From Nymphaea colorata (taxonomy: Eukaryota; Streptophyta; Magnoliopsida; Nymphaeales; Nymphaeaceae), in assembly GCF_008831285.2 (NCBI RefSeq), contig NC_045138.2, positions 10,242,571 through 10,306,570 on the forward strand: a stretch of DNA of 64,000 bases, in the 5' to 3' direction. How positions within the stretch are numbered: position 1 is the stretch's first letter; each line of letters opens with the position of its first letter. The position numbers were made by a program, and so were the translations under genes. Positions 29,236-56,979 of the stretch are shown piece by piece. Below the pieces are notes generated by a model. It searched no databases and was not told the origin of the DNA. It saw only the letters and a list, made by a program, of their open reading frames with translations.

Positions 29236-29593
29236 TAGGGATATCAACAAAACTAATTTGGATTCGATTGCACTGTTTCAATAAAATTGAATATAAAAAT
29301 TTCAATGCGAAGTTAAGAAATCATATTTGGATTTAGAAAAGGACACCTTAAGATATAGATTTCAATAAATATGCGGTCATGTTCATATTCGTTTTAATTT
29401 TTAAATAAATATCTAATATTCATCCATCTTTAAGTTGGTTCTTCAATTCAACTTCGGTTTAAGAGTCAGACTTGCTTTCGGTTGTGAATCTAAAAATTAG
29501 ATCCAGATTATAAATTCGGACTCAAATTCAGCTATAGTGTGAACTTTTCTTCATCATATTGCAATCCAAATTCAAATATGTGGACATCCCGTA
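29236..29593. mobile_element. Probable hAT MITE with TAGGGATATCAACA-type ends
   Basis: The left end TAGGGATATCAACA is roughly mirrored at the right by TGTGGACATCCCG, and the interior has GAATTCGGAT-like words seen in this MITE type. No target duplication could be confirmed. Confidence 0.45.
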
Positions 29594-30919
29594 AAAAGGA
29601 TATTATAGATGATACATCCTACTCGAATCGGATGACGGATCGGTTGCTAGAGCAAGAAAAATTGCTTGGAAGTTGAAACTCAAAAATCAGAAGCGCTGCA
29701 TTGAATTTGTGCAAAATATGATGCACTTCTCGCAATTTTTGTAGAATTTCCACGGCTCGCCAAAGGTTTCAGTTCTCACCGGTGAACACCTTCTTCCGGC
29801 GATACTAGAAAACGCAGCAGGCCGTGTTTCGGCGAGCGACTAGGTACCCGGCCCCCTCTCTCGTTCTGGTTGCACCGGCGGACAACCCCTTCTGGTTTTA
29901 GGGGTGACCGGCCGGCAACTGTTGCTAAACTCAGACACGCGCGCGCGCATACACATACGCACATACTTGTTGGCTGCCGTAGGCACTAGGGAATGCTTCT
30001 TCTTGAACTTTATTGTCATGGACACCCAGCGTTAACCATTGTCTATGTTCTTCATCTTTCATACTTATAGTTGTGTTTTCTAATGTTTATCTTGTCAGTA
30101 ATTGCATACCAGACGTTTGATATAATATTCAAGAGAAATATGTGAAAAAGAAAAACACGTCTTGATTTCCTGTATCCTCAACTTCATCCTTCGAATGAAA
30201 AGCCTTTGCTGCTTTCAGATTACTGTCTCATTTGGCTATTATCTGATTGAATTATTCTCTAGTCTGTTGTTTGATTCAGTGTAGTGCTTACGACAAATAA
30301 GGTTTTTGTTGTGCCTTGAGTATTACGAGTTATAAAACCAAGCTCTCACGGAACTAGTTTGGAAATCACTGGTTTTAAGTTTTAACCTGTCATCCAATCA
30401 CTACCTAAGAAGTTAAAACCAAGTGTTGAAAATCTAGGTTTTCAGGATCTGTCGTCCAGAGAGTGAATGAGTCGTATAATTAATCTTCCTTGACTTTTGT
30501 TTGTCCTTTATCAAATTTTATTTAATTTGAATATCTCAATATCATTGGATGGTTAATTAACCATCAGTTTCTGTGTACTGATGATTGAAAAACAACTAAC
30601 TACTTTCCCAGCTGACGTGCTAAGCTGGATTTACGTTTATGAAGGCCCTTTCTTTATGCAAGCGTTAAGCCTTAACTGAAAAGTATTAAAATGGGTTATT
30701 CTTCTGAGGAAAATTGCAAATTAGATTTTTACCTCAGATAACAAAACTCAGATAGCTAGGTAGCTGCAAGCTAACTACTGTCACTCAAAAAACGAGATCA
30801 GGTATTTGTAGTCTCTCAACAAAGCAGGCGCCAAACTAGGTTTTCCGAAAATCTATGTGTTGTCAGCATATGTGGTGGAACACATACATGGAAGCCTGAT
30901 TCAAGTAAGATTCTGCAGG
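29594..30919 (+). promoter_or_regulatory. Upstream region and probable 5' UTR of RH1
   Basis: About 1.3 kb without a recognised gene. A CG-richer part (29760-29960) with an alternating (CG)n/(AC)n stretch near 29935 could hold the promoter or a 5' UTR exon. The frame of RH1 exon 1 is also open upstream to an ATG at 30857, which gives an alternative start; 30920 fits the family length better. Confidence 0.35.
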
Positions 30920-31059
30920 ATGGTTAAGAAGGGAGTTGAAGTGTTTGAGGAGTCAATGGGACAGAATAAAAGTGAACCATTTCTGCCATGGATGAGGAAT
31001 CCAGTGGATGTTGATTCTTATGAAGAATGCACTCTCGAAGTTGTTCCTTACTTAGATCC

Positions 31060-31062
<3 letters not shown>
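30920..31062 (+). CDS. RH1: RH1 exon 1
   Basis: Encodes the start through [12 protein letters not shown]...VPYLDP and two bases of the next Arg codon. PWMRxPVDV and the LDPR end are typical of the RH1 N-terminus. The donor is AG|GTCTCT, merging at once into a (CT)n microsatellite. Confidence 0.85.
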
Positions 31063-37100: not shown

Positions 37101-40100
37101 TTCAATGGCTGAAGAGGTTTCATCTCTGGTACAGAAGCCCAAGTTCTCTATGGAATTCTCTTGTGATCCACCAGATCTCTGCTCATCACTAACAAGTTCT
37201 GTAGACATACTTGTAGCCACACCAGGGCGATTGATGGACCATATAAAGACCACCAAAAGTTTTACACTAGAGCATCTTTGCTATCTAGTAAGTTATTAAG
37301 ACCGTGCAATCTATTGACTGTCCTAATTGCAAATGATCCTACTATATTGTCCAATTGAAATGTCTGTGACTCTGTTCTCCTTGTCGCTACAGAAGATATT
37401 GGAGTTCTATCTTCTTCCAACATTTGTTTTAATAGAACAATATTACTTTTCGCATTCTCATCTAAAGTTCATATGCTCTACATTTCTAAATTTCTTAGTG
37501 CATGCATTTTCCAAAGACAATATTCGACATATGACATATCGATGCTCATAGGTCATTGATGAAACTGATAGATTGCTGAGGGATGCATATCAATCTTGGT
37601 TACCTACTGTTCTTCAGCTCACTCAAATGAATGAACAACAAATGCTCAGATATGAAGGGTCACCAACTTTTGGGCCATTGAGAACCTTGAGAAGATTGTA
37701 TGCACCAGCCTTATTTCCTTGTCTTATTTTTTCTCTACCGAACCACACATACTCATATAGTTCATTGCAGGGGCCCTGGGAGAGGGTTGTGGAATAAAAG
37801 ATATCCAAGAGTCATGAAGGTAACCCTTTCTGCTACATTGACACGAGATCCTAGCAAGCTTTCTCAACTTAATCTATATCATCCTTTATTCTTGACAACT
37901 GGTGCATCTGGAACACGGTATCAACTCCCTAACCAGCTAGAATCTTACAAACTGGTAAAGTGCTAATCTAATTCTGTTTTAATGATGTCATTTTCTTGAG
38001 TTTGCTTCATCATATTTTTTTTCCCAAAGTTGATGCTTAACTGATTATAGAAGTATGATTAATTCTTTCATCTTTCTATGTTTATTATTTTAGATCTGTG
38101 ATTTGAAGATGAAGCCCCTTTATTTGTTTACGCTTCTTCAAAAATTAAGTGGAGAGAAGAGCATTATCTTTACATCATCTGTACGATCGACCCACAGACT
38201 TTGTACATTATTGAATTGCTTTGGTGAATTACCTTCTAAAATTAGTGAATATTCTAGTCTTCAGCATCAATCTGTGCGAAGGTACTGTATATAGACATTG
38301 AATTTAACATGAAAATATATACTTTATGTTCTACAACAAGATTAGTGACTTGCGGAGTGTTGATGCATGAATTCAATTTTCTGCAGCATGACACTTGATG
38401 CCTTTCGGGCAGGCGACATACAGGTCATTGTTGCTTCAGATGCCATGACTCGTGGTATGGATATTGAAGGGGTCTACAATGTCATTAATTATGACATGCC
38501 TCCATATATCAAGACATATGTTCATCGGGCTGGTCGCACTGCTCGTGCAGGTCGACCTGGGTGTTGCTTCACATTACTGAGGAAGGATGAGGTAGTGCCA
38601 TATTCTTCAAGGCTGGCATAATAATTTAATTAATTATCAATTTCATTGTTTCCTTTTCCTACTTATTACAATATTATATCAAGTGCATATCTGTAAGCAT
38701 TTATTTGGTAGGAATGAATTTTCTCAAAAAAGTTCTAGCCTCTTAACCAATCACCATAGATCTCTTTAAGTATTCTATAGGATATCAGTCATTATATGGA
38801 TGGTTTTGCTTACCATCAAATTTCAAAGAACTTGATGACTTGTTTATGCTTTCAGCTTTCAGGTCGCAGTGTCACACATATAGTTCAATTTACTAGGGTA
38901 ATAAATTCATAAGTTAACTATGTTCTTCATATCCATCATATGTATAAGATAGACTAGGATAATAAAAGGTAGTAAGTCAATTTATAGACTAGGAGAAAAG
39001 GTAGCATGTCAATTTATGCTTTATGAGCTAGGATGTTATTTTAAAACCTTATTTAATGATTACTTTGACATAATAAGTTCACAGCATTTTAGTTGTTTCA
39101 CTTTAAACTTCAAAGAAAGCAGCAATCAATTCCTGAAGGATATTCACATCCAGTAGTGTAGAGTATTTATGGCAACTTTGAGTGGATGTGGACCCTAACA
39201 GTACTTAATCTGTTGCTGCATTTGGTCCTCCTGCCATTTTCCCAGGCAGCATTTTCCCAAATTCAATCCTTGATATGGCATGATACGGATCATACACAGC
39301 TGAGCCTATGACCTAAGGTTTGGATCTGTGTCAATTCCTTCCCCCTTAACGCACACTTTGCTTTTGATATATGAGGGATTTTGTCAGTTTACATTATCTC
39401 ACTGTAACTTAACCTATGCTTTTGTATGTATATTGAGTCTGTCAAATGCACCCAAGCATCTCTCTTGGTTCTGAAACATCCTTTGGAGCTTTTAGAATTA
39501 TGTAATCTTACTTGTCAATTGTCATTTACCATTCATGAAAATTCACACATTAGAGATCATTTAGAGACTCACACAGTTACGTTTTAATTTGTAGAAGAGG
39601 TAAGAAAATGCAATGGAGATGGTGGATAGTGAATATGTAGTAGGCTGCTGGCATTAGAGGGAGAGAGAGAACTGTCTTTTGAGATCAGTGTACTTGTCTT
39701 CTGGTCATTCACAGGGATTCACAGGGATATGAAAAACTGAGGGTCCTCATTGTGCTTCAATTAATTTCTCAGATGTATTAGGGGCTGTTTATTGCTGTAG
39801 TCTTGCTGCAGTATCTGAGCAATCAAGTTCCTCTATTTGCTTAGGTTCAAATATATCATACTGATATAACTGCTAATTGATCTGATGTAAAGTATCATTG
39901 CTGGTCATTTCTTTATTCCCACCAGGAAAAAGGAAAAAGTAGAAGTAAAAGAAAAGAGAGAACAAAAGGAAGGGGACCTTTTTATCATTTAAAGTGGGAT
40001 TGCATCTAAGGTTGCCTTCCGAACTGACTTCTGGTTTTTGGTTGTCTCTTTTTTCAGTCATCTTCGTTGTGTCATTACCTACTTTTCAAGCATGGATTAT

Positions 40101-43100
40101 TCTCATTCTCAACTGGAGTTTTATCCAATTTATTGAGCCAACTTGTTTTTAAGACTCAACAACTTCTATTTCTGGGTCTGAAAAAGACAAATTGCTTTAT
40201 TCTTACAGAGCTGAGATCTCTCTAGACACCTGGATGAATCGCTTCCTTTTCCACTAGAATTTGTCACAAGGAAATCCAAGATGAAAAAGAGTTGCTTCTG
40301 CCCAATTTCTTGAAGTTCTAAGTTTGTCTTCTGGATGAAGCAAGATCCAAATTTAGTTGCCTGTATCACCTCTACTTTGTCTCATGAGGTACTAATGGCC
40401 ATATCAAATGATTGTTCAACGATAAACCAATGAAGCAAATTGGTTTATACCTATTCTCAGATATCAAAAGCAACAGTTTTATTTCTCAAACATGAGTTCC
40501 AGCTTCAAAAAGGGTTCTATGTCAGAGACGAAGTACTTAAATGAAGTGCATTACAGATCAATTAGCAGTTGTAGAGGCTGCAAAGTGTCAGATAAGGTTG
40601 AAGTGTAATAAAGATTAAGTGGATTGGGGCCTAAAAATCGTGTCTATACAACCTCTTTATATTTGTGCTCGTTTGCTGCCTTGGAAATTTTTGTCTGCAA
40701 AGGTCTCACAGTATGAGATGATGATGAAGAGGAAGACTGATGGTTCTGATGTATAGTCCAACAGGCATGGAGTTCTTACTAGGATGTCCAGAAATACGAG
40801 GGTGTGGTGATTTTTCCCTTTTCGAGGAAGATGCTGAGCTATAAGTGCATAACGAGGTCGAGAGCTATAGGCCACTCTTCGCTTGCCACTTTGAGTGCAA
40901 GAAATCCATATTTAAGAACTGTTCTTAGAAGGGAGAATCATCATCGAGTAGAAAAGAGCCAGAAGTGCCAGTGGCTAGCAGGGTGGGAAGAAGCTTCTCT
41001 TGACTGGAATATCATTGTCAAATGAAGACATTGAAGCATGTTTTTGACAAGGGCAGCTTACGATGAAGGTGCAAGTCTTATGCAGTTGAACAGTGAGCTT
41101 TGGCGTCCATTGCTAAGTGCAAAACTCCCTTTTAGCAATGCCAGTGGCTATTCATCTACTTGTGTTTAAAATTAATGCCTGTGTGCGACATTGCTGCCAG
41201 AGGTCAACAGGTTTGTGTTCCTTAAATAGACTGTTGACATATGTTGTATTTGGGTCACCTATCCGGGTTTGGATTTCGACCCGATCCAGTGTGTTACTGT
41301 TATGGGCCTACTTAACCTGTGTAAACCCTAATTTCAGTGTGAATGATATTCTAAGAGAGAGAGAGTCTGGTTGCTAGTGGGCACCTCCTCACCCGTGGTT
41401 TTTTCCCTCTTGTTGAGGGGTTTTCCACGTTACATTGTGTTCATTTCTTGTTTTTGACTATACATGGTATCAGAGCCGGCTGGTTCTGAAATTACTGTTC
41501 AGTTTAGACCGAAAATCCCTGGACAGTGTTTGGGTGAAGGATTCCCTGTTGCCTGCTTTCTGCCGCTGCCGTGAACTTCCGACTTCCCACTGCTCGCTCG
41601 AAGCCACCCTCGCCCGACCACTGCTCCCCACTGGCTTCCGGCTTCCCACTGCTCGCCGCCGTGGTCTTTTGGTGTCGTTGCCCTGAGTTCCGGGAAGGTC
41701 TGCCGACGGAGTCCACTGTTACGCGGATCGCCCAAGGGTCGCTGTTGGTTATGCGCTCCTTGTTCAACGGTTGAGTAGTCGCCATGGAGTTCTGGCGCCC
41801 TTATTCTGCTGCCTTCTGTCGTGTGTGGGGGCTATCGCTATGCTTCTACCGTCGCCAGTGCCAGCTGGTCGCCTCCCATCCGTCGTCGCCTGAGCTGTCT
41901 GTTTGCTGCCCCTGCTCAAGTGTGCACAACACCGACGCCTGAGCCTCGGCTACCGTCCCCCTGCTCTGCCGTGCTCCCTGCTCTCCTGTGCTCCCTGCTC
42001 CACCGTGCTCCCTGCTCAGTCTGTCGATTCTTTGGGGCGTCTACAACTGAGAATATTCCAGTTCACTACAATTCGCCTCACCAAGGAAAATTACCTTCAA
42101 TGGTCTGCAGCGATCACTATGGGGATTGCTGGACGGGGCCGAATTGCGTATGTTAACGGAAGGAAAGTTGAACCTGCTGAGACTAATGTTGCTTAGGACA
42201 CGTTGTTTCTTGAGGGCAACCAAGTTAAGACTTGAATTGTCAACTCTGTGTCCCCCGAGATTCAACCTCTTATTCTTTGCAAGAGGACTGCGAGGGATAT
42301 GTGGGTTATACTTGAGCAGATGTTTGGCCAAAAGAAGAAAGTTGTTCGGGTGTATCAGTTGATGAAGGATGTCTATTCTCTTTGGCAAGGTGAACACTCT
42401 GTAGCAGATTTCTATGCTGTCTTGAAATCTAAGTGGGAGGAACTTGACTACTACTCTGATGACACTTGAGATTGTCCTCAAGATCAAGTGCGTTATTTAG
42501 CCAAAGAATGGGAGAATAGGGGTATTCCTATTTTTAGCAGGGTTGAATGATGACTTTGAAGGTACAAGGAGTCAAATCCTTAATTCTGACAGACTACCTA
42601 GTGTTGAAGATGTTTACTCTCGTGTAGAGGCTGAAGAGCAACGCCGCCTTGTTATTACTAGAAAAAAGGGGGATCACATCTCGTATAATGAGAGGTCTGC
42701 CCTTGTTAGCCGTGGTCCTGTAGGAGCTGCCCGACCTCCTCGCAAGTTCACTCACTGCAATAAAATTAGTCATACAGTGGATTTTTGTTGGGACCTCCAT
42801 CCTAAAAAAAAGAATAGTCGAGGGAAACCTTCCAGTGGGAAGAAATCTACTTCTGATGCTACCAACTCTAGTGGAGGGACAACTTCTATCTCAGCTGAAC
42901 AGATTCGTGAGCTTTGTGCTTATCTAAGTCAGTTGGTCAGGCCGAAGTGTCAGATGATGTAAAGGTTAACCATGATTTGGCCATTTCTGGTGAAAAAGGT
43001 AATTCTTGTATGGAAGAATGGATTGTTGACAGTGGTGCCACCCATCACATGACTGGTAATCCTAAGTTTTTTCATGAGTATAAACTATCTTCCGATGGTT

Positions 43101-46100
43101 CCTTTACCTTTGTGGCAGGAAAAGCGAGTCTTTCTTTGTTAAACAAATTTTTAGTGCATGGTGCCTTACATGTTCCTCATCCTCCCTTGGATATGTTATC
43201 TGTGAGCAAGATTACTAAGGAGTTGAACTGTGAACTCATATTCTCTACAAATCGTTGTGTTTTGCAGTACTTGGTGACATGAAAGAGAATTGAGATTGGT
43301 TTGGTGTCTAAAGGCTTATATTGACTTCCCATCTGTGTGGCCAATGCTCTTATGACAACAATTAGCAGGACCGAGAAGAAGAAAGAAGATTGTCTTTAGT
43401 TTTTTTTGTATTGGCATGAACGCCTTGGACATCTCCCTTTTGGAGTTTTGAAAAAGTTATTTCCTGAGTTATGTTCTAGTTTGGACATATCTATGATATC
43501 TTGTGATGTATGTCAGTTTGCTAAACATGTTAGGGCTTCATACCTTGTTTCCAACAGTCGTGCTAATGAAGTTTTTTCCTTGATCCATTCTGATGTGTGG
43601 GGGCCTTCGGGAATTCATACCCGTTGTGGTTTTCAGTATTTTATAACATTTATAGATGATTACTCACGGACTACCTTTGTTTACCTCTTGAAAGATCGTA
43701 GTGAAGTGCCTCATGTCATAGAGACTTTCATTCTTCTTGTGGAGAACCAATATGGTGGTTCTGTTAAGACATTTCGGTCTGATAACACTCGTGAGTATGT
43801 GTGTCATGCTGTTGAGGATTTCTTTCGAAAAAGGGGGATTGTTCATGAGACATCTTGTAGTTATACAACTCAAAATGGGGTCGCTGAGAGGAAAAATTGT
43901 CAGTTGTTTAATGTCATCAAAGCCCTCTTGTTTCAAAGGAATCTTCCCAAACATTATTGGGGAGATACTGTTCTTACCAGCGCATGCCTAGTCGTGTGTT
44001 AAATGGGCGGACGACCCACTCTATGCTTCCAGGGAATCGTCAACCCCTTCACCTCCCCCCTCGTGTCTTTGGGTGTGTTTGCTTCATTCATGATCACAGC
44101 CTTAATGTTAAAAAACTTGATTCAAGGTCAATCAAGGGAATATTTGTTGGGTATCCTCCTACTCAAAAGGGGTATAAATGTCTTGATCCTACCACTGGTT
44201 GTGTTTACGTTATCAAGGATGTCACATTCTTGGAACACGTCTCTTATTTCAGTGAGAATCCTCTTCGAGGGGAGAAGTCTATGTCACGGGAAAAGTATTC
44301 TCCGAGTCAGGAAATTCAGTTTACTGATTTCTTGGAGTACAAGCAGGAAGAGAGTCCATCGGGTGTTGAGGTGCTTGAACATGAGAGAAATGAAGGATGT
44401 TCCACTGGGACGGAAGAAGAATGTAATCGCTTGTTTGGGCAGATGTACTCTAGGCAAAGAGTTCTACAGATAAGGTGACTGATGGTGAGAATTCTACTCC
44501 TAATCCCAATCCTACTTCTTCCCTGGATGACCTAAGTCGTGCTCAGAAGAAACCTGTTGAGGAAGACATTCAGACAGAAACTGAAAATGAGGAGCTTCAG
44601 ACAGAAACTGAAAATGAGGAGCTTCCCATTGCCCTGAGAAAGGGTGTTAGGTCCTATACCCAACACCCTATTGGTAACTTTGTGTCATATTCTAGACTGA
44701 GTACGAATTACAAATGTTTTGTATCATCTCTCTCTTTGGCTGTGATTCCCAGGACTGTTACAGAGGCTCAGAGTGATCCCAAGTGGATTCATGCTATGCA
44801 AGAAGGGATGGAAGCTTTGATCAGAAACCGAACATGGGAAGTGGTAGAGATCCCTGAAGCGGCTCATCTGGTTGGATCCAAGTGGTTCTACACCATTAAG
44901 TACAAACCAGATGGGAATGTTGAGAGGTACAAAGCTCGCCTGGTTGCTAAGGGGTTTAGTTAGAAATATGAGATTGATTACTTGGAGACATTTGCTCCTG
45001 TTGTGAAGATGAAGACTGTTAGAGTTATTGTTTCTCTAGCAGTGTTGAAGGAGTGGAAGATGTGCCAACTTGACGTTAAGAATGCTTTTCTCAATGGAGA
45101 TCTTGAAGAAGAAGTATATATGTGTATGCTCCCAGGATATGAGAAACCGGGAAAATGTTGTAAACTGAAGAATGCTTTGTATGGGCTCAAGTAGTCTCCT
45201 CGCTCATGGTTTGAACGTCTTAGACTTGTAATGAGACAACATGGCTACAATCAAGGAAACAAAGATCATACTCTCTTTGTAAAGAGCAAGGAAGGTAAGG
45301 TTACTCTCTTGTTAGTCTATGTTGATGATATGATTGTTACATGTGATGATGAAGATGAGATAACAAGATTAAAGGGTTTATTGGTTGCTGAATTGGTCTC
45401 AAGGATCTTGGCAAAAATTGCTAGATCAGGTACGACCCTTGTGCTAAATTAAAAGAAGCATACCCTGGATTTACTGAAGGAGATAGGAAAACTAGGTTGT
45501 AGACCGGCTTCTACTCCTCTGGATGCTGGACACAAACTTAGTATTAAGGATGAAGAACCTCTTTGTGAAGAAGCTAAGGGTAGGTATCAACGTCTGGTTG
45601 TAAGATTGATCTACCTCACTCTGACTAGACCTGATATCACATTTGCTGTAAATGTGATGAGTCAGTTCATGCACACACCTACAAGATACTCACTTGAAGG
45701 CTGTCGACAGAATCTTGTGTTACTTGAAGAGGAATCATGGCAAGGGGCTTCTATATGTGAAACAAAGGTCGATTGAGATTGAAGGGTATTCAGATGCAGA
45801 CTGAGCATGCTATGTTGATACTAGAAGATCTACTTCAGGGTACTACGTCTACTTGGGGGAAAAACTTGTTGTTTGGAGGAGCAAGAGACAAGATGTTTGT
45901 TCCCGCTCAAGTACAGAAGCTGAATATAGGGCTATTACTACTGGAGTGTCAGAATTACTGTGGCTGAAAGTATTACTGACTGATATTGGGATAGAGACGG
46001 AAGGACCTATGAAGATATACTGTGATAACAAATCCGCAATCAATCTGGCCAACAACCCTGTGTTACATGACCGAACAAAGCATGTCGACATTGACCATCA

Positions 46101-49100
46101 CTTCATCCGGGAGAGAATTGATGTCAGAGAGTTGATTGTACCATATATGAAATCCGAAGATGACTAAAGCCTTACCTGTGACTCAGGTTGAGAGAAATGT
46201 ATCCAAGTTGGGCATGTTTGATATGTATGTCTAACTTGAGGGGGAGTGTTGACATATGTTGTATTTGGGTCACCTATCCGGGTCTGGATCTAGACTCGAT
46301 CCAGTGTGTTACTGTTATGGGCCTACTTAACTTGTGTAAACCCTAATTTCGGTGTGCGAGAGAGAGAGTCTGGTTGCTAGTGGGCACCAGGCCTCCTCAC
46401 CCGTGTTTTTTTCCCTCTTGTTGAGGGGTTTTCCACATTACATTGTGTTCCTTTCTTGTTTTTTATTTTACATTGACAAATTTATAAACAAGGAAAAAAC
46501 AGATCATCTTCAGAAATAGGGAAGAACAAGATGCTTCTTCCATCATACGTAGCGTAGATATTCCTCCCACAAGACAACCATCCACAAGAGATAACCTGTT
46601 GAAAATGGGGTAGCCATGCATTCTTTCCTTGAAAATTCAATCATTTTTGCCTCAAATTAAAAATATAAGTGAACTTATAACCTTTTTTGCCAAGTTTCCA
46701 AGACAAACAAATGAACTGAGATTATAAATATGACTGTCAAATTGTAAGCAGTTCCAGCGAGATCATGAAATAAGAATGTTATAGGGTCTAATTGAGTGTA
46801 CTAAATTATACAAGCCAAATGGGAGCATTAAATTATACAAGGCTAGACTTGTAACAGAGGACTTAATGCAGGAGAATGTACATGATTATAATGAAAAATT
46901 TAATCCTGTTGTTAAGATGAGAACAATTTGGATTATACTCTTGCTAGCTGTTGATCACGGGTGGTTGTAGAGTTAGATGTAAAAACACGTTCTTACATGG
47001 TGACTTGAGGGAGGAGATATAAGTGAAACTACCCGCACGACATAGAGGAAACCCCAAAGCATATGTACGTAAGTTGAAGAGAGCTGTCTATAGTTCGAAG
47101 CAGATTTCTCAATCTTGGTTTTAAAGCTTTTCTTTAGAGATCCACAAATTGAAACATGACTTTATTGATTTGAACTGGATCATCCACTATTTATCTTTAA
47201 AGCTATGGACATGTGTCCACATTATTGTTGAATATGTAGATGACAGTTGAAGATGCAAAATGATGGATCTTGGTAGTTTACAATACTTTCCTAGGGTGGA
47301 GATGGATAAGAAAGATAGAGTTTGTCTTAACTCCACGAAAGTACACACTAGACATATTTATTAAGGCATAAATGAAAGTTTACAAACCATTGGCTAAACT
47401 TTGTGTAATCGATAAAAAACTTAACCCTCAAAATGGAGATCTTTTTTGACTCATTATCATGATCTGATCAGGTATGGTAGTTAGTGTAAGAATCTTCTCA
47501 AAATACCATGAGACCACGTCTCTCCGTCTGATAATAAGGGGGATGGAGAATAGAGAATAGAAGGGAAGCAATGAAGGAGAGAATGTCGTCGGCCAATGCA
47601 GCCGCACGATGCTTGATCTCTATATTAAAACATGACCTAATCAGGTTACAACAAAAGGAATAAAACATGAAGTAATTACAAGAGATACCACCGCCTAATA
47701 TGTTTAGGCGTGAAAAAAGAAAGAAAGTGGATCGGGTCTGAACAGACCCGATCCAATATACATACAGACTTAACAGCCCCCCTCAAGTTGTGCATGAGAT
47801 TTGATCATGCACAACTTGTTTTTCAAATCCCAAAAGTGCTGCCCTGTGAGTCCTTTGGTAAAAAGATCCGCTATCTGTTCACTGGTGGAGATATAAGTAG
47901 GCAAGATCTCGGCTTCTTCAACCTTCTGACGAATGAAGTGTTGATCAATCTCAATGTGTTTGGTACGATTATGCAAAACGGGGTTGTAGGCAATTTTGAT
48001 TGCGCTTTGATTGTCACATAGTAATGATGACTGAACAATCGGAAGATTGAGCTCGCCAAGCAAATGCCGTAACCATGACGCTTCAGCTGTCCCTGCAGCC
48101 ATTGCTCTATACTCTGCCTCAGTGCTAGATCGTGCAACTGCGTGCTGCTTTTTACTGCTCCAACAAATGAGATTAGAATCAAGAAAAAGACAAAAACCTG
48201 AAACGGAGCGTCGGTCATCGGGATCTCCTGCCCAGTCTGCATCAGTATAAGTATATATGCTATGTCCAAGAGAAACATTGGGGCACTTTGTATAGACCAG
48301 TCCATCCCCAAGAGTAGCTTTGAGATACCGTAAGATCCGCTTAGCGGCATCCATATGTCCTTCTATGGGTGCATGCATAAATTGAGAAATCTGATTTACA
48401 GCATATACTATGTCTGGGCGAGTAAAAGTGAGGTATTGTAACATACCAACAATGCTGCGATAGAAGGTAAGATTTGAATAGGCAGCGGTTCCATCAGAGG
48501 CAGCCAATTTAGTGTTCAGAACACTAGGAGTAGTTATGGGTTTGCAATTAATCATACCTGCCCTGTCTAAAATATCAAGGGTATACTTATGCTGGGTAAG
48601 AGTCAATCGATCATTCGTCCTGTCAAGTTCAACACCCAAGAAGTACCATAGTTCGCCGAGATCCTTCATCTTGAATTCTTGCTGCAACATACCCTTAACA
48701 TAAGATATATGTGAAGAAGAATTCCCAGTTATAACAATATCATCTACATATATAAGTAACCAAGTGGTAGCTTCTCCGGTATGATATATAAACAAGGAAT
48801 GATCGAGAGAGCTTCGTAGAAAACCAACTTGTTGTATATGATGAGAAAACCGATCGAACCATGATCTAGAAGCTTGCTTCAGCCCATATAAAGACTTGTG
48901 TAACTTACAAACCCACTTGTGAGGATCATGAGTAGTGTAGCCGGGAGGTTGCTCCATGTATACCTCTTCCTTAAGAATCCCATGAAGAAAAATATTTTTG
49001 ATGTCTAACTGGTAAAGAGACCATCCATATGAGACTGCAAGAGAAATAATCACACGTATTGTGCCCATCTTGATAACAGGACTGAATGTTTCATCATAAT

Positions 49101-52100
49101 CTTCCCCATAGTGCTGAGTGAAACCACGCGCCACAAGACGTGCTTTATGTCGAACAATGCTACCATCTGGCTTATACTTCAGTTTGTAAACCCATTTGGA
49201 GCCCACAACATTCTTATCATCTGGACGAGGGATAAGTCTGACACTCATGCAAGGCTTTCATTTCTTCATTCATAGCTTCAACCCAACATTTTTCCTTACT
49301 CGCATGTTGATAGGATTTAGGTTCCACCTTTTTGCTCACTTCTGTCATAAACAACTGAAAATCTAAAGAAAAGTTGTTATAACTCACCCATCGATCAATG
49401 AGATGTCGCACACGTTGTGATTGACGTGGGACTGCAGTAGGAGCTGATCGCCTAGAGTACACCAGCCCTAAGAACCGACTATGTATAGGTGGATCACTGT
49501 GAGAAGATGGGGGCATGTTGTCCAAGGCACTACTCACAAGTGTATCGGGCTCATTAACACCTTGCTCTTTATGCTCAGTCAAACGTTCTGTCCCTTGTTT
49601 TAAGATTTCAGCATGTAGCCAAGTGTCATAAACCTCATTTTTATCCTTGAGTGTCATACAAGTAGCCTTGTTCTTGTAACCTGCTTTCATAAAAAACAAC
49701 ATGCCGTGAAATATGAACACACCCAGTTTTAGGATTGTAGCATCTATAACCCTTGTAATTTTCTGCATACCCTATAAATCTGCACAAAATAGCACGATCT
49801 TGAAACTTGTTTCGTAGAGAAACATCAACATGCACATAGCAAACACATCCAAAAACACGCAATTCCTCATAGTGTGGCTGCTTTTGATGTAATAGAAAAT
49901 ATGGTGATTTTCCATCAAGCAAAGCTAATGGCAGTCGATTTATAACATGGACAGCCGTATGAAAAGCCTCGGTCCACAATGTCATGGGTAAGTCTGTGTC
50001 ATGCATCATGCTGAGGGCGCTTTCAACAATATGTCTATGTTTCCTTTCAACAATTCCGTTTTGCTGAGGAGTATGCGGGCATGAAATTTGTCTAGTGATC
50101 CCCTTATCTAGTAAGTACTCAGTAAATTCATTAGAAATAAATTCACCACCACCATCACATTGAAAATGCACAATATTACTGGAGTATTTATTCCGAACCA
50201 AGGCATGAAATTGAGTGAACAAGCGGAAAACTTCTGATTTGTGTTTCATGAAATGGATCCAAGTATATCGGGAATATGAATCAATAAAAATGACATAGTA
50301 TCTACTCCCAGAAGAAGAAGGAATTGGAGCAGGCCCCCAAACATCAGAATATATGGTGTCAAAAACCTTTGAAGCTCTTTTATTGATTAATTGAAAAGGA
50401 AGGGCATGGCTCTTACAGATATGACAACTTGAGCACATGCTGGACTCACTAACTGAACTTAAACTGGACTTATCTAAGAGTCCGTCTGCAACAAGACTTC
50501 GAACAAAAGACTGACTACAATGAGCTAACCGACCATGCCAAATGGATGGCTTATTATACTCTGCGACATTGACTTCACTATGACTAGGAAAACATGAATC
50601 TGAAGGGTGAGGTATTGACAGCTGTGGAGCTTCTTCAAGGACATACATATTTCCTTTGCGAGTGCCCTCAGCGAATGTCTTCTTGGTTCGAGCATCCTTG
50701 ACATAAACAGAAGATGGTGTGAATTCAACAGAGGAGTGAGTATCATCAATAAGTTTAGACACTGAGATGATACTTTTCTTGACATTTGGAACAACAAGGA
50801 CATTCTTTAACGGAATGGAAGAATAGCCCATAGATATTTGTGCATTTCCAATGTGCGATATTGTGTGATGGGAACCATCTCCTGTGACAACTGAGCCTTG
50901 ATCTAAATAGGGGAAAACACTAGAGAGATTACCTGTGTCACCAGTAACATGGGCTGCTGCTTCAGAGTCCACATACCACTCTCCTTGCTCGTTTTGTTTC
51001 AAGTGGAGCTTAGATAGGGTTGTCATGCGAAGTTGCTGCACGTCTGCTGAAACATTTGATGTCTGATTTGAGCCAGATGATGACGAAGCTGACCTTGCTG
51101 CTGCCCTGTTCTCACGCCTAACCTGATTATTTTTGTTCTGAGGGTTGTGCCAACATTCTGATTTTACATGCCCCCTTTTGTTGCAATAGAAACAAGTTGG
51201 AACCCTTCTAGATGTGGCAGAGGTAGTATTCATGCCTGATGGTGTTGGGAGAATCCCTTTTCCCATTCCTGCCTGAGAAGTCCAAGGACGAGTGCGATTC
51301 CCTTGCAGTGCATGTGTCATTGTGATCAGTACATTGTGGCTATTAGAAGGAATCAAATTCTGTCGCTGAACACGACTAGCTTCATGTTGAAAAAGCTTGG
51401 CCTTCAGATCTTCAAAAGATGGGAGAACAGGTAGGACTTCCAAGGCTGTGCAGAAAATATCAAATTCTGTTCCCAGTCCACTCAAGGCTTGTTGGACTTT
51501 GTCCTTGTCGCTGACAGGATGTCCAATTGCAGCAAGCTGATCGCTAACACTCTTGATTTCATTCAAGTATTCCAAAACTGTACGCGTCCCACGCTTGATG
51601 TCCTGAAATTGCCTTCTTAATTGTAGAAAAAGTGCTTCCGAGACTTGAGAATATGTTGTGGCAAGGGTAGACCACAACTCTAGGGCAGTTAAATCATCAT
51701 CAATACCTATCAATACCTCCTCTGACAAGGTAGAAGTGATATAAGCAACAAGGGACTGGTCGTGAGCCAGCCAAACTTCATATTCGGGATTGTTCTCAGT
51801 AAGAGTTTCATATTCAAAACTAATTTCACCTTTATCTCCCACGACTGTCTTCTTTACTTCACGGTCAATATACTTTGGAGGTGCTGGAGTAGTCCCATCG
51901 ATGTGCCCATACAGTCTATGACTTTTAATAAATGGGACAATTTGACGTTTCCAAGTCAAATAATTGCTATGGTTCAGTTTTTGAGAGATGAGTTGGGAGA
52001 GGAGACTGGAGGATAGAAGAGAAGGGGTCGGCTGATCCATGACTGATTAGAGAAGATTAGGGCAGGCGATTTGAAGTTTTGGGCAGAATTTAAAGGCAAC

Positions 52101-52637
52101 GACAGAAATTAGGGCAAATTGTCGCAACCGAAATTAGGGCAAATCGTGGGATTTAGGGCAGAAACAGAACTTAGGCAGAAATTAGGGCAAAACGTGGGAT
52201 TTAGGGCAGATTAGGGCAAATCGTGGGATTTAGGGCAGAAACAGAACTTAGGAATAATCACGGCAGAAATTAGGGCAGATTATATCAAACGGAAATCACT
52301 CACCGGAGGACGATCCTGGCTCTGATACCATGTAAGAATCTTCTTAAAATACCATGAGACCACGTCTCTCCGTCTGATAATAAGGGGGATGGAGAATAGA
52401 GAATAGAAGGGAAGCAATGAAGGAGAGAATGCCATCGGCCAATGCAGCCGCACGATGCTTGATCTCTATATTAAAACATGACCTAATCAGGTTACAACAA
52501 AAGGAATAAAACATGAAGTAATTACAAGAGATACCACCGCCTAATATGTTTAGGCGTGAAAAAAGAAAGAAAGTGGATCGGGTCTGAACAGACCCGATCC
52601 AATATACATACAGACTTAACAGTTAGTGGGTATGCAT

Positions 52638-52670
<33 letters not shown>

Positions 52671-55600
52671 CTAACTAAACATCATTTATTTTGTGAATTG
52701 GGTGTATCAACTGATGTATAAATCGTGGCCATGTGTTAGGGGCCGGGTCTTGAGTCGCGTGTCAGGCCCATTAGATTGACGGAACACGTATAAATAAGGG
52801 TTGGGCAGTTGTAATTAGGGTATTGTAGAAATTAGTGGGTGTTCCTTTGGGAGGAGAAACCATAATCTGGAGATTAGGGCTCAGTGTGCTTATGGAGTTT
52901 GAGGGTTTTCTCTTGTAAGGGCTCATCAAGCTTAGCGGTGGCTAACAATGGTATCAGAGCCAAAGAAAGGGGAGCGGATGACCTGGTGTGACACTTTGAC
53001 GGCCATAGACGTCCTCCAATGCGCAAAAGAATCGATGGAGGCATTGGACCAATATCTGCAGACGGTGGAGCGACATCGCTGGGAAAAGGACGGAAGAATT
53101 CCGGCTGTTCTCAGCGAGTAGCAATCCCTCACGGTGATGATGCGAGAGCTTCTACGACAAGGTAAGAACTCAAACTCACCGAGTCTAGAGAGGGCTGATA
53201 CAAAGAGCTATCAACTGGCGGGGGGATAGCATGGACCGCCTCCATTGGGAAGAGTAGAGAAAACGCTGTCCTCAATAGGCAAAGACGTTGGAAGATCGAC
53301 TGGTTGGGAGGCCGCGAAGATGCCAAACAACGTGAATAAGATGTGGGAGGCTATGATAGCAGAATACAGGCAGATGCGTCTAATGCTTGAAGAGCTTCTT
53401 GGTAAGAAACTGATCGAGGTCGCTCTGTCAAGAGAGGAAGTTCACGCACAAGCAACAATTGATTCAGAAAATTCAAATAGTGAACGAGAAGAAGAAGATG
53501 TTCAAGGCGATGGGTCAAAACCTGTGTTCGTGGGGGATGCTAGAAGACAACGTCATGCAGTTAGGGATGATGAAGACATTGCTTTCCCACTCCAAATCCT
53601 ACCACAGAGGATGATCGGTCATGTCGTCGAGCACCAAGGCAGAGACAACAAAGCTAAAGGAGCTCTTATAGTTGAATCAATGAGCCAACGAGAGGATGGC
53701 ATCACCCATAGGACTGCGCACTTCGAGTTTGGCACTGGGGGAAAGAAGTACGAAGAGAATGAGTTAGAAAGGGAGATGCCCTCGCATATTTCAGTTAGGC
53801 AGCAAGAGAAGCCCCCTTGGAATCAAGACGTGGCAGTAACAACAGAGGATATGGAAGGGTCGGCCATTGAGTTCGATGATCAGAAGGTGTCACCCCTGCT
53901 GAAGGAAGTACATGGACAGGACACAAATAAAGGCAACCACAATAAAACGGGAAAAGGCTACCTACCATTGCAGTCTGTGTATGGGAGAGATGCTTTGGGC
54001 GACTGTGGAATTTGGCCACTGATTAATATTCTGAGATTAGGTCTTCTGGGATGGAAGCTGGAGGAGCCAAAGACGGGTTCCATCGTGTGCAAGACCATTG
54101 ATGATGATGAAGGAGGTAGAAGTATCCTTTCAGTATGGAAGAGAACGACTCTAGAAATCGAAATGGAGGAAGCAGCCAGTGAGAAACGGGAAGAAGAGAC
54201 GAAGTTGACTGCAATTTGGACGTTGGGTGTTTGGCTTGCCGTAGAACTGGTAGGGTCGCTTGTCACTATGACTGCTCTAAAACCTGCCCTGGCCTCTTTA
54301 TCTAACTTCTTCCATAGTAAAGGTTATACGGTTGTCCTTGCCACGGCGTCCTTGAGGTACCTCGAAGGGAGATGGAAGCTATAGATGGCTCACTGAGGAG
54401 CAATCCAAGCCATTAAACTCATATTGGGACCATCGATGTTATCATTCTATCCAACACCGTATATGTTGGTCGAAGCTCCAGTTGGCACAGGGGAATTCTC
54501 GGCAGAAAGTGGTAATGATGAGCATTACCTCACCAGGTGGCTAGAGAAGTTCAGTGCTGCGGCAGGTAAGGACACTTGTCACAACCAATTGGTAAAAGTG
54601 GATGACTCGTGGGATATATGTTTTGTCCTATTTTGTCGATCCACATATGTAGCACTTCATGATTGTTACATGAAGGAAATAGCAAAAGGGAGGCCATTTT
54701 TTTTATCATAGATTTTGACGAGGTTAGGTGGACATTTCTTCAATCGCTAGAAGTTTCTACAACGAAGCTACCTGAGCACTTCAAGAAGGAAGAACTCATG
54801 CCCTTGCTTGATTTTCATGTGAAAAGGTTACTAGGTGCCAGATTAAAGGAGATGGAGCCTACTATTTGCTTGCAAACATCTAAGGAGGCAACTGCCTTGG
54901 AAGTTATAGGAATAATGAAGCAACGTGCAGGGAATTTTTTGTTTCAACTTTCACTTCTTACAACAGACAAGAAGTTGTATGACGGATGGAGAAATTCTTT
55001 GTGCTGACTACCACCACGTCGAGCTACTCCCAACAATATTGGAGGCCATTGAAGGGGTCACAAGGAGAAGGGATCTTTGGTCGCTTACACCAAGGCGGGG
55101 CAAGTTTAGCTACGGAAGTTCCAAGCCTCTAGTGGTCATTAATGACTTCAACTTGAAACTCAAGAAAAAAGAGGGGACATCCCAGGGCCACACAAAAGTT
55201 AGGAGAGAGGCCATAAGCCAAACAAAAGGGAGTTTGACGCAGACAGTGATTGCCTTTCATGCTCATACCTTGAGGGCAAGGTGTGCTTCAAAGAGGGGAG
55301 TATTGTTAGGGACCGGGTCCTGGGTCGTGGGTCAGGCCCATTAGACTGACCCAGGAACAAGTATAAATAAGGGTTGGGCAGCTGTAATTAGGTTATTGCA
55401 GAAATTAGTGGGTGTTCCTCTGGGAGGAGAAACCCTAATCTAGAGATTAGGGCTGAGTGGAGTTTGGGGGTTTTCTCTTGTAAGGGCTCATCAAGGTTAG
55501 CGGTGGCTAACACCATGACGTATTGATGTAGAAAAAAAAAAAAAAAAAAAGATATTTGAAAGGCACTATTGGACTCTTGTATAAAACCAGTTGGTTGGAT

Positions 55601-56979
55601 AAAGGCCCATATGCACATTTGACGGGATTTTCATGAAAGAAGGCTAGTCCCAGATGACAATGTCTTTATTGGAGCTGATTTAGTATCTTGGAGTAGCAGA
55701 CAATAAAAAATCATTGTTAGATCTAGCACTAAAACAAAATGAAGATGTTGACTACTACCAGCAGATGTCACATGGATCAGACATTTGTTGACTGAATTGA
55801 GTGAGTCTATTTGGAGATTTTTTTTTTTTCCATTTCATCCATCAACATGAAACAAAATATATTGAGATTGGTCAACATTTCATCAGTCAAAATTTGAAAA
55901 AAGATTGAATTTCTTCTTGCTGAAAATCAGGTAACTGGCTTTCACAAAAGACTTGATCAAATATTGGCTTTGTTTTTTGGCACAAGCCCATGCACAAGTC
56001 AAGGGAAGCGGTTGAGGCTTCTCAAAACTAAATCTGAATCCCTGAGACGTGCATTCTTTTGTCTGACGTATTTACCATTATCTTGTATATTATTGTATTT
56101 CTTCTTTATGTAGCATGGTATTGTTATTCTTTCAATGCACTGAAGCAACAGTACCCACACGTTGGGATTCGTGACGATTGTGTGCCTCCTTTGTCTTCTC
56201 TCTTGGTCATGGTGATTGATTCCAGTGGTATTTCTCAGGAATTGAACATCTGTGGTGTGATGGCTGTTTTTTTCTAAAGATATTATATTTTTTTCTTCAC
56301 ACGATATCTTGGCTGTTCTTCGTGACGGGAGAAAGCATACTAAAATTTTGTAAGATTTTCTGGGAATCTGCTAGTTAACAAGTAGGTAGTAGTATTCTAA
56401 TTATTGGTCGTGATCAGGGATAATAATTTTTGTGTTGTCTCAATCATAACATAATTTCATAGAAAAAGTGGAGTTATTTTTGTCATGAATATACCTTGAC
56501 GTTTATCTTGATGGATGGTAGTCATCTTGCCTTTTTTTCCTCAATAACATGAAAGTTTTGCGTGGCTATTTGCATGTTTTATTTTCTTTCGACTTGGTCG
56601 GTTAGAGTGTTAAGAACTACCGTGGTGTAATGTATTCTCCCCTTCTGACGGTCATCCTAATCCTATCACTGCACATGAACCATTTGTGTTCCTTCAGGTC
56701 AAACGCTTCAAGAAGATGTTACAAAAGGCTGGTATCAGTAAGTGTAGCGTATATCCACTTGCATCAGATTCGATTGAACGCCTTATGCCTGTTTATTCAT
56801 CTGGTACGCACATATTTTGGTCTTTCTTATTCTCTGAAGCCGACTTCTCGATCTCATTTCTATATTTCTATCTGCCAACAGCATTAGAAAAATTGAAAGA
56901 GTTAGCAGATTCAGAAGAAAACAAGCGAGCTTCATGGCGTCCAGCCAAAACCAGGGACACAGTCAAAGTGGGAAAGTAG
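30920..56979 (+). CDS. RH1: DEAD-box ATP-dependent RNA helicase 1 (nine exons, 519 aa)
   Basis: Exons: 30920-31062, 33962-34196, 37033-37287, 37552-37697, 37771-37954, 38094-38281, 38387-38591, 56698-56803 and 56882-56979 (TAG). All introns are GT-AG and the phases join to an open 520-codon frame. Motifs: Q-motif FPIQ; motif I SPTGSGKT (about 86-93); Ia PTRDLALQ; Ib TPGR; motif II DETD (214-217); III SAT (280-282); [31 protein letters not shown] (430-440). The Q-motif, [19 protein letters not shown] stretch, DETD box and C-terminus with [12 protein letters not shown] place it with plant RH1, related to yeast Dbp6/DDX51 proteins of ribosomal RNA processing; that role is by homology. It is probably nuclear or nucleolar. 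The length is close to the Arabidopsis protein as I recall it (about 520 aa). Intron 7 is 18,106 bp. No stop or shift was seen, so the gene looks functional. Confidence 0.92.
31064..31099 (+). repeat. (CT)n microsatellite at the RH1 intron 1 donor
   Basis: A run of CT repeats begins inside the 5' splice site itself (GTCTCTCT). Length change here could alter donor strength; that effect is inferred. Confidence 0.85.
31809..32123. mobile_element. hAT-like MITE in RH1 intron 1
   Basis: Begins CTAAGTCACATGGGTAC and ends GTACCCATGTGTCTTAG (inverted repeat with one mismatch). Flanks GTCCTAAG (31801-31808) and GCCCTAAG (32124-32131) match 7 of 8. Subterminal words such as ACCCATGTCGGTACACGGGT recur. 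A (TA)n run lies near 32017-32036. Confidence 0.85.
32124..33961 (+). other. Rest of RH1 intron 1
   Basis: No recognised element or gene. Short frames on both strands (for example 33395-33652) overlap and are not supported by motifs. Confidence 0.3.
33962..34196 (+). CDS. RH1: RH1 exon 2 (Q motif, motifs I and Ia)
   Basis: Completes the split Arg codon and encodes 78 residues: [20 protein letters not shown], the Walker A motif SPTGSGKT, and [11 protein letters not shown] binding depends on the Lys-Thr of GKT, which is present. Confidence 0.92.
35074..35959. mobile_element. Non-autonomous hAT element in RH1 intron 2, 886 bp
   Basis: Begins CTTAGTTGTTAAGGCA and ends TGCCTTGACAACTAAG, with TCTGCTCC on both sides (35066-35073 and 35960-35967), a perfect 8-bp duplication. 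Both ends carry GCCTAGGCG-type words (35102-35200 and about 35915-35945). No transposase; the interior is AT-rich. Confidence 0.93.
36276..36790 (+). repeat. Diverged tandem duplication in RH1 intron 2
   Basis: Segments at about 36276-36505 and 36550-36790 share GCAGCCAARA-TATC, TTTAAGG-(C/T)TGTGCATAATTT, GAGAAGATGA-type and GTGAGGTTGTA(AT)TTTGTTTTT blocks, offset by roughly 275-280 bp. The two copies are clearly diverged. Confidence 0.65.
37033..38591 (+). CDS. RH1: RH1 exons 3 to 7 (motifs Ib to VI)
   Basis: Exons 37033-37287, 37552-37697, 37771-37954, 38094-38281 and 38387-38591 with introns of 264, 73, 139 and 105 bp. They carry [60 protein letters not shown] and [11 protein letters not shown]. 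Motif II is DETD, which is normal for this subfamily and not a mutation. Confidence 0.92.
38592..41231 (+). other. 5' part of RH1 intron 7, unassigned
   Basis: About 2.6 kb before the first copia. AT-rich, with short frames only and no clear terminal repeats. It is probably original intron sequence. Confidence 0.4.
41232..41464 (+). repeat. 5' LTR of the 41-kb copia
   Basis: 233 bp; has GTGAATGATATTCTAAG before the GA tract, which the 3' copy lacks in part. Confidence 0.88.
42057..42961 (+). pseudogene. Copia gag remnant
   Basis: Frames give [67 protein letters not shown], then from 42543 [13 protein letters not shown] and a CCHC-like [19 protein letters not shown]. Two stops and a shift break it. 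Confidence 0.8.
42962..46167 (+). pseudogene. Copia pol remnant
   Basis: Protease [13 protein letters not shown] (catalytic DSGA intact) at about 43020; GAG-pre-integrase [16 protein letters not shown]; integrase with [30 protein letters not shown] (43406-44002); [22 protein letters not shown] (44475-44963), [12 protein letters not shown] (44982-45194) and VYVDDMIVT (45231-45452); RNase H end [10 protein letters not shown] (45853-46167). Stops at about 44963 and 45194 and a shift before the RNase H part disable it. Confidence 0.85.
46247..46472 (+). repeat. 3' LTR of the 41-kb copia
   Basis: 226 bp, preceded by the polypurine tract; see the element entry. Confidence 0.88.
46780..47484 (+). 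pseudogene. Decayed copia RT, first segment of a split element
   Basis: Broken frame [57 protein letters not shown] (degraded YVDD) and YHDLIRYGS. The frame leads directly to the insertion point of the young copia, and the sequence resumes at 52622. LTRs of this older element were not found. Confidence 0.75.
47485..47775 (-). repeat. 3' LTR of the young copia
   Basis: 291 bp; differs from the other LTR at one C/T near 47500 and at two adjacent-codon sites in the GTCGTCGG/GCCATCGG word. Confidence 0.95.
47770..52040 (-). pseudogene. Copia gag-pol of the young element, two frameshifts
   Basis: Start ATG is at 52040. Piece 1 (52040-49641, 799 aa): UBN2-type gag, CCHC knuckle [14 protein letters not shown] (about 283-296), protease site DSEA at about 358 in place of DSGA, GAG-pre-integrase WHGRLAH, integrase with [19 protein letters not shown] and [14 protein letters not shown]. 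Piece 2 (49768-49217) is the integrase tail in another frame. Piece 3 (49248-47770, 492 aa): [47 protein letters not shown] and RNase [20 protein letters not shown] ending [13 protein letters not shown] and a ty1 tail. The shifts and the protease change suggest it cannot move by itself. Confidence 0.92.
52122..52275 (-). repeat. Short-unit repeat array in the young copia leader
   Basis: Words GGGATTTAGGGCAGAAACAG and AAATTAGGGCAAATCGT alternate several times between the gag start and the PBS. It is an internal minisatellite of the 5' untranslated leader. Confidence 0.75.
52331..52621 (-). repeat. 5' LTR of the young copia
   Basis: 291 bp; followed by GTTAG, the duplicated target. Contains a palindromic GGATCGGGTCTGAACAGACC word near its upstream edge, also present in the other LTR. 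Confidence 0.95.
52622..52734 (+). pseudogene. Decayed copia, second segment
   Basis: Short continuation of the copia RT/RNase H linker between the two insertions, with a long poly-T run (about 52645-52669). It ends with CCATG at 52730-52734, the target duplicated by the next element. Confidence 0.6.
52735..52947 (+). repeat. 5' LTR of LARD-like element 2
   Basis: 213 bp; TATA-like GTATAAATAAGGG at about 52788-52800 and conserved CTTTGGGAGGAGAAACC block. Has GTGTGCTTAT not present in the 3' copy. Confidence 0.9.
53245..54384 (+). CDS. 379-aa unknown protein encoded by LARD-like element 2
   Basis: I do not recognise this protein. It starts at an ATG 296 bp after the PBS and is open for 1,140 bp. 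The N-terminal third is charged and helical-looking ([20 protein letters not shown], then an Asp/Glu-rich stretch with [12 protein letters not shown]), the middle is hydrophilic, and near the C-terminus there is one hydrophobic segment ([20 protein letters not shown]) followed by a short tail. No zinc knuckle or enzyme motif is visible. It is preceded by a broken short frame from ATG 52977 ([20 protein letters not shown]) that resembles coiled-coil starts of Ty3 gags. The role could be gag-like or none; an intact frame in an element with ~200-bp LTRs could also be chance. Confidence 0.4.
   Translation: MGRVEKTLSSIGKDVGRSTGWEAAKMPNNVNKMWEAMIAEYRQMRLMLEELLGKKLIEVALSREEVHAQATIDSENSNSEREEEDVQGDGSKPVFVGDARRQRHAVRDDEDIAFPLQILPQRMIGHVVEHQGRDNKAKGALIVESMSQREDGITHRTAHFEFGTGGKKYEENELEREMPSHISVRQQEKPPWNQDVAVTTEDMEGSAIEFDDQKVSPLLKEVHGQDTNKGNHNKTGKGYLPLQSVYGRDALGDCGIWPLINILRLGLLGWKLEEPKTGSIVCKTIDDDEGGRSILSVWKRTTLEIEMEEAASEKREEETKLTAIWTLGVWLAVELVGSLVTMTALKPALASLSNFFHSKGYTVVLATASLRYLEGRWKL
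54385..55303 (+). other. 3' internal part of LARD-like element 2
   Basis: Short frames 54424-54711, 54663-55007 and 54925-55344 overlap and continue the same coding-like composition, suggesting one longer ancestral frame with two or three breaks. No known domain. Confidence 0.35.
55304..55512 (+). repeat. 3' LTR of LARD-like element 2
   Basis: 209 bp, followed by CCATG. Differs from the 5' copy by a few percent, including ACCCAGGAAC in place of ACGGAACAC. Confidence 0.9.
55513..55930 (+). pseudogene. Decayed copia, third segment (RNase H)
   Basis: After the duplicated CCATG and a poly-A run, the frame gives [35 protein letters not shown] and [17 protein letters not shown], which are copia RNase H blocks. 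With 46780-47484 and 52622-52734 it makes one old copia split by two later insertions. Confidence 0.75.
55931..56697 (+). other. 3' end of RH1 intron 7, unassigned
   Basis: No recognised element. It ends in TGTGTTCCTTCAG, a good 3' splice site for exon 8. Confidence 0.4.
56698..56979 (+). CDS. RH1: RH1 exons 8 and 9 (C-terminus)
   Basis: Exon 8 (56698-56803) encodes [16 protein letters not shown] and a stretch to PVYSS; exon 9 (56882-56979) encodes [19 protein letters not shown] and a short basic tail to TAG. The frame fits exactly onto exon 7, 18 kb upstream (DE|VKRF). This join across the retroelement stack is the strongest evidence that the gene is one unit. Confidence 0.88.
   Translation, partial: VKRFKKMLQKAGISKCSVYPLASDSIERLMPVYSSGTHIFWSFLFSEADFSISFLYFYLPTALEKLKELADSEENKRASWRPAKTRDTVKVGK

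Follow-up and report, generated by a model that had tools for sequence, protein, structure and literature searches.

A retroelement-filled intron of 18.1 kb in one of two copies of a DEAD-box helicase gene in Nymphaea colorata

In the Nymphaea colorata genome, a helicase gene with 1,560 bp of coding sequence includes a single intron of 18,106 bp that is largely made up of retroelements lying in both directions. Such an arrangement raises the question of how transcription could cross these elements without ending prematurely. The locus was analysed in a stretch of 64,000 nucleotides on contig C1 (the window, to which all coordinates without a contig name refer) and was compared with the rest of the genome, particularly with a second copy of the gene on contig C8.

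Gene structure and the elements within intron 7

The nine-exon model proposed by the sequence-only reading was borne out: the exons sum to 1,560 bp (519 aa and a stop), all eight introns (8/8) have GT-AG ends, and exons 7 and 8 meet in phase 0 at DE/VKRF across intron 7. The coding exons of the C1 copy are intact, with stops, frameshifts and splice-site losses all absent. The features of the gene are as follows.

30920..31062, + strand, exon 1, start codon at 30920, 99.3% identity to the C8 exon
33962..34196, + strand, exon 2, also in the C8 copy
37033..37287, + strand, exon 3, also in the C8 copy
37552..37697, + strand, exon 4, first residues VIDETD (motif II), also in the C8 copy
37771..37954, + strand, exon 5, SAT motif, also in the C8 copy
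38094..38281, + strand, exon 6, also in the C8 copy
38387..38591, + strand, exon 7, in which the helicase core finishes, also in the C8 copy
38592..56697, + strand, intron 7, 18,106 bp against 4,954 bp in the C8 copy
56698..56803, + strand, exon 8, also in the C8 copy
56882..56979, + strand, exon 9 with the stop codon, also in the C8 copy

The model goes beyond chance, since the exon lengths, frames, splice dinucleotides and intron positions all recur in the C8 copy. The protein is a DEAD-box RNA helicase, containing both the DEAD (PF00270, E 2.2e-30) and Helicase_C (PF00271, E 4.8e-21) domains of Pfam, with DETD as motif II. Of its 188 PDB matches 60 were listed; the top ones, HAS1 and DBP10 among them, are generic DEAD-box helicases, and the name DDX51/Dbp6 is absent both from these 60 and from the 60 of 131 matches listed for the C-terminal part. 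The name RH1 comes from the sequence-only reading and is plausible. The Arabidopsis protein AtRH1 is likewise a DEAD-box helicase of about 520 aa; the protein described here, a putative orthologue, has the DEAD and Helicase_C domains. In PMC5809497, AtRH1 (AT4G15850) is listed as the DDX51/Dbp6 counterpart and as a single copy in Arabidopsis, in contrast to the two RH1 copies in this genome.

Intron 7 indeed holds four retroelements, as had been proposed, namely elements A, B and C with paired LTRs and an old copia relic, and both directions are represented. The three LTR elements account for 13,157 of the 18,106 bp (73%) and are nested within the relic.

40152..40659, + strand, old copia relic, gag-like part, found by tblastn with the element B frame, also in C8
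41232..46472, + strand, element A, Ty1-copia type, 5,241 bp, LTRs 41232-41464 and 46247-46472 (K2P 0.061)
46809..47437, + strand, old copia relic, reverse-transcriptase part, also in C8
47485..52621, - strand, element B, Ty1-copia type, 5,137 bp, young, exact target-site duplication (TSD) GTTAG
52734..55512, + strand, element C, short LTR element, 2,779 bp, exact TSD CCATG, LTR K2P 0.083
55635..55902, + strand, old copia relic, RNase H-like part, also in C8

The assignment of A and B to copia is based on copia-type domains and two LTRs of the form TG..CA. Element A contains rve and RVT_2 by Pfam in broken frames, together with a gag-like frame that has no Pfam match; its TSD is imperfect (GAC/TTGAC, beside the empty C8 site), and an exact 5-bp one was not found. 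Element B encodes Retrotran_gag_2, rve and RVT_2, its 291-bp LTRs have 3 differences (K2P 0.010), and at least 40 genome matches to its LTR were found with 40 of 399 candidates scored. In element C no reverse transcriptase was detected and its 384-codon frame has no Pfam match, features consistent with a non-autonomous type.

Other transposon-like sequence occurs elsewhere in the window. A direct-repeat pair (3041-3214 and 5103-5277, 87% identity), one copy of which is 74% related to the element C LTR, is probably a further member of the same short LTR family. Pfam recognised a hAT-like transposase fragment at 16990-17478 and a copia gag fragment at 21480-21989, while a frame at 7221-7859 on the - strand resembles copia reverse transcriptase by eye.

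The C8 copy and the timing of the insertions

A search of the genome with the protein recovered all nine exons again on C8 (21538583 to ~21556598, + strand), with exon lengths equal to those of C1 and GT-AG introns. The C8 coding sequence is open over its 1,560 bp and differs from that of C1 at 44 nucleotides and 24 amino acids (dN 0.022, dS 0.053), dN/dS being about 0.41, a fairly relaxed value. The pair does not descend from the genome duplication of Nymphaea colorata, as its dS lies far below the Ks peak of about 0.9 given for that event in PMC7015852. The alignable block extends from 29982 to 59890 of the window, roughly 30 kb. Across 104 kb on C1 and 124.5 kb on C8, the sequence beyond this block shows no more than short scattered matches of 99-814 bp (e.g. 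an inverted one at 29227-30000 and a set of four within 9582-10885), which suggests that a longer segment may have been duplicated at first and then rearranged. A stretch of 2,609 bp from the left of intron 7 has a full-length DNA match only at C1 and C8; seven others are short, with 66-78% identity.

The sequence-only reading had allowed that a second intact RH1 elsewhere might account for all transcripts. Half of this proved right: such a gene exists, being open, full-length and devoid of the three insertions. Given this copy, the plant need not depend on crossing an 18-kb intron, although C8 has a copia-bearing insert of ~5 kb in its intron 3.

In C8, intron 7 is 4,954 bp long, with a donor (GTAGTG) and an acceptor (CCTTCAG) identical to those of C1. 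At the sites of A, B and C its sequence is an uninterrupted target with a single copy of the duplicated bases, and these sites (~2622, ~3658 and ~3749) all fall within the span of the relic. Parts of the relic follow one another there as in C1, at 1548-2202, 2907-3611 and 3851-4127 of the intron, while its integrase part was not detected in C8 intron 7. Being common to both copies, the relic is older than the duplication.

The C8 region carries peculiarities of its own. Its intron 3 measures 5,515 bp against 264 bp in C1 and contains an insert of ~5 kb (C8:21544807-21550321) with copia reverse-transcriptase similarity; the sole repeat detected near its ends is a direct one of 51 bp. On the - strand, C8:21577203-21579586 holds a third, incomplete piece of RH1; it comprises part of intron 2 and exon 3, with 96% identity over 220 bp of exon 3, and adjoins sequence resembling window 10077-10885.

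With intron 3 excluded because of the C8 insert, seven introns differ between the copies at 563 of 10,652 sites (5.3%) and by 77 gap events. For intron 7, K2P between the copies is 0.054+/-0.003, to be compared with LTR values of 0.061+/-0.017 for A, 0.083+/-0.021 for C and 0.010+/-0.006 for B. The LTR divergence of element C exceeds that of the copies (0.083 against 0.054) by only ~1.3 standard errors and hence does not contradict the empty sites. Precise excision is not known for LTR elements; the empty sites in C8 hence date all three insertions to after the duplication. Most simply, intron 7 would have grown from ~5 kb to ~13 kb soon after the copies arose and reached 18.1 kb in recent times, although the time spent at ~13 kb is uncertain, the ages of A and C carrying wide errors. 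The middle stretch of the relic was also compared with the remainder of intron 7 for accelerated change, and the difference (6.4% against 4.9%, P 0.066) was not significant.

Coding constraint, transcript signals and competing readings

The undamaged reading frames allow the fate of the copies since the duplication to be assessed. At the rate of the seven introns, 11.3 indels would be expected in the coding sequence between the copies, and none was seen (P 1.3e-5); for a single branch the expectation is 5.6 against zero (P 0.004). Since simple repeats inflate the intron rate (20 of the 77 gap events lie near them), the test was repeated without those 20, and the result is weaker but holds, with 8.4 indels expected (P 2.4e-4), or 4.2 on one branch (P 0.015). 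For frame-shifting gaps alone, the expectation is 6.4 (P 0.0016), or 3.2 on one branch (P 0.04), again against zero. Substitutions are likewise depleted, with 44 in the coding sequence where 82 would be expected (P 2.5e-6), and when the 44 were placed neutrally in 5,000 runs, 24 or fewer amino-acid changes arose in 1.6%. The indel and substitution tests thus say that the undamaged coding sequence reflects constraint more than luck. For exons 8 and 9 alone (204 bp), only 0.8 to 1.5 indels are expected, and their intactness is not significant by itself.

These tests pool both copies without an outgroup, and for C1 by itself the strictest count gives no more than P 0.04. They support constraint in the C1/C8 pair, and less firmly in C1 alone, over most of the time since duplication, which suggests that the C1 gene was functional with an intron 7 of ~13 kb. 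With an LTR K2P of 0.010, element B is too recent for them to test the 18-kb intron, as they are powerless for the time after its arrival.

The sequence-only reading had credited the elements with their own polyadenylation signals, which was not confirmed. On the sense strand of intron 7, AATAAA occurs 12 times against 8.6 +/- 3.1 in simulated sequence, so an excess of poly(A) hexamers was rejected, their density being near that of chance, and the LTRs of the sense elements A and C contain none. Plant poly(A) signals are degenerate, however, and the absence of AATAAA from these LTRs does not exclude poly(A) sites there. TATAAA is present in the LTRs of element C. A CpG footprint of methylation was not found, the observed/expected ratio being 0.49-0.57 in the elements, 0.39 in the exons and 0.31-0.32 in introns 1-2. 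Reading on from exon 7 yields the same short tail, VVPYSSRLA and a stop, after motif VI in both copies. A transcript ending in intron 7 would encode 461 aa, keeping the whole helicase core while losing the last 67 residues and gaining 9; even a failure to cross intron 7 might therefore be mild.

The locus is probably best explained as a duplicated DEAD-box helicase gene in which the C1 intron 7 has been swollen by three LTR elements and from which full-length mRNA is most likely still made. The course began with a recent segmental duplication (~5% intron divergence), when intron 7 was ~5 kb long and contained the decayed copia relic. In C1, elements A and C landed in this relic at about the age of the duplication and B recently, and the growth to 18.1 kb left exons and splice sites untouched. 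Ordinary splicing would then remove the whole intron via the donor and acceptor common to both copies, most likely giving full-length mRNA, for which the coding constraint speaks indirectly. The insertions would be tolerated as intronic, expected to be silenced and, in their sense LTRs, without canonical AATAAA. The structure, the duplication, the empty sites, the order of events and the constraint since duplication are established, while expression of the C1 copy, silencing of its elements and read-through of the intron are inferred.

A less probable account, in our judgement unlikely but deserving serious weight, regards the C1 gene as a duplicate that has lately become redundant and is being lost, with C8 supplying RH1 and C1 transcripts mostly ending in intron 7 or absent. 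The open, full-length C8 gene without the three big insertions is consistent with this, as are the relaxed dN/dS of 0.41 and the youth of element B, after whose arrival coding damage would not yet appear. On the other hand, C1 shows no stop, frameshift or splice-site loss, whereas a branch free of constraint since the duplication should have gained 3.2 to 5.6 indels, depending on the count (zero seen, P 0.04 to 0.004), and C8 is not clean either, given the copia-bearing insert in its 5,515-bp intron 3. It is improbable that intron 7 acts as a regulatory switch, with both ends used and premature polyadenylation yielding a stable, core-only isoform of 461 aa beside the full protein. The identical VVPYSSRLA-stop tail in the two copies fits such a switch, as does the Arabidopsis precedent of isoforms regulated by intronic poly(A) sites of transposable elements (TEs; PMC10241880), but the shared tail may reflect only recent common descent, sense AATAAA is near chance, and the 461-aa transcript is purely predicted from sequence. 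Most improbable is an assembly artefact in which the elements or the C8 copy are products of scaffolding or a misplaced haplotype. The assembly does comprise 783 contigs, some small ones contaminant-like; nevertheless, there is no N in the 104 kb around C1 or the 124.5 kb around C8, the TSDs are exact for B and C and imperfect for A with matching empty C8 sites for all three, and similarity between the regions outside the ~30-kb block is confined to short scattered pieces.

Long introns in this genome and in other plants

A length of 18 kb is rare among the introns of this genome, which may still include some of about 10 kb. None of 104 sampled introns exceeds 10 kb (upper 95% bound 2.8%), and only one exceeds 5 kb (6,921 bp). 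The sample consists of gaps between neighbouring exon matches at adjoining profile positions on C1-C14, with 43 from myosin, 28 from TCP1 and 33 from kinesin genes. The exon matches used were 76 of 85, 66 of 69 and 102 of 148, respectively, the rest lying on small contigs, bar one single-exon TCP1 gene; in the underlying searches, 65 of 89, 86 of 86 and 122 of 287 candidates were scored. A further 58 gaps (21+16+21) that span missing profile stretches, with more than one intron each, were set aside; the longest measure 6,943, 5,028 and 11,877 bp.

Some of the small contigs are unusual in themselves. On C159 and C87, myosin, kinesin or helicase matches cross in-frame TAA/TAG, with similar signs on C300, C288, C464 and C711. 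Two myosin pieces on C159 contain 26 TAA/TAG and no TGA, while the matches on C87 include some TGA; the longest frames on C159 and C87 reach 436 and 271 codons under genetic code 6 but 94 and 90 when the standard code is applied. This suggests that small contigs of the assembly carry ciliate contamination.

Long introns rich in LTR elements are common in some angiosperms, including magnoliids, according to PMC8626473. In Chloranthus spicatus, the same source reports 876 of 2,184 high-confidence orthologues above 20 kb, with LTR elements apparently the main cause of long introns. The RH1 intron resembles these in content, but there the pattern is genome-wide, in contrast to none of 104 sampled introns above 10 kb here. 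In rice, 5,809 heterochromatic introns in 4,227 gene models (about 11%) are described, many of them transcribed (Espinas et al. 2020, PMC7145194). The C1 copy likewise has a long TE-carrying intron within an intact gene, as do the genes of that class; methylation and expression were measured in rice, while here the comparison is drawn from the DNA, and the rice set is enriched for introns close to the promoter, in contrast to the present one, the seventh of eight. A methylated intron of 27.2 kb is reported in a cacao IBM1 copy (PMC11265718).

Three papers (PMC10241880, PMC7145194 and PMC11265718) describe silenced intronic elements as passable by polymerase in Arabidopsis and rice. At some genes, transcripts are polyadenylated too early when H3K9 or DNA methylation, or IBM2/EDM2, is lost; in Arabidopsis, the majority of genes whose introns carry CHG methylation still produce full-length transcripts under reduced methylation (same sources). 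For IBM1, RPP7 and PPD7, the long mRNA requires read-through of intronic repeats, as it would here; there the dependence on IBM2/EDM2/AIPP1 has been shown by mutants (PMC11265718 and PMC10241880), whereas silencing and a role for these factors are putative for RH1. Should readthrough of the C1 intron need help, a known pathway of the IBM2/EDM2/AIPP1 type would be the likely provider. Fifteen BAH matches were found in the genome, eight of which, at eight places, were read over 7 kb each. At these 8 of 15 an RRM motif was not seen in the open frames with a rough pattern, and IBM2 (BAH with RRM) was hence not recognised there; the other seven lie at C1 4.25 Mb, C11 4.91 Mb and on C123.

The puzzle posed by the sequence-only reading, namely how premature ending of the transcript is avoided, is thus supported only in part. 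The exons are indeed intact despite the insertions, but the phenomenon is of a known kind, partly answered in print (PMC10241880, PMC7145194 and PMC11265718), and an open second RH1 without the insertions exists. RH1 intron 7 appears to be an ordinary intron, lately lengthened, of a duplicated gene, and not to represent a new mechanism.

A bolder view would treat the 5-kb and 18-kb forms of intron 7 as a natural experiment, the relic as a landing zone for LTR elements and the C1 intron as a switch between 519-aa and 461-aa isoforms; as a whole, this is a long shot. Taken alone, the locus adds a further example to the plant genes with TE-filled introns, and its value is that of a dated, paired test case. 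The 44 coding differences make C1 and C8 transcripts distinguishable, and precisely three insertions, each roughly dated, are missing from one of the copies. A comparison of splicing, 3' ends and methylation between the two copies would reveal the cost of 13 kb of intronic LTR elements.
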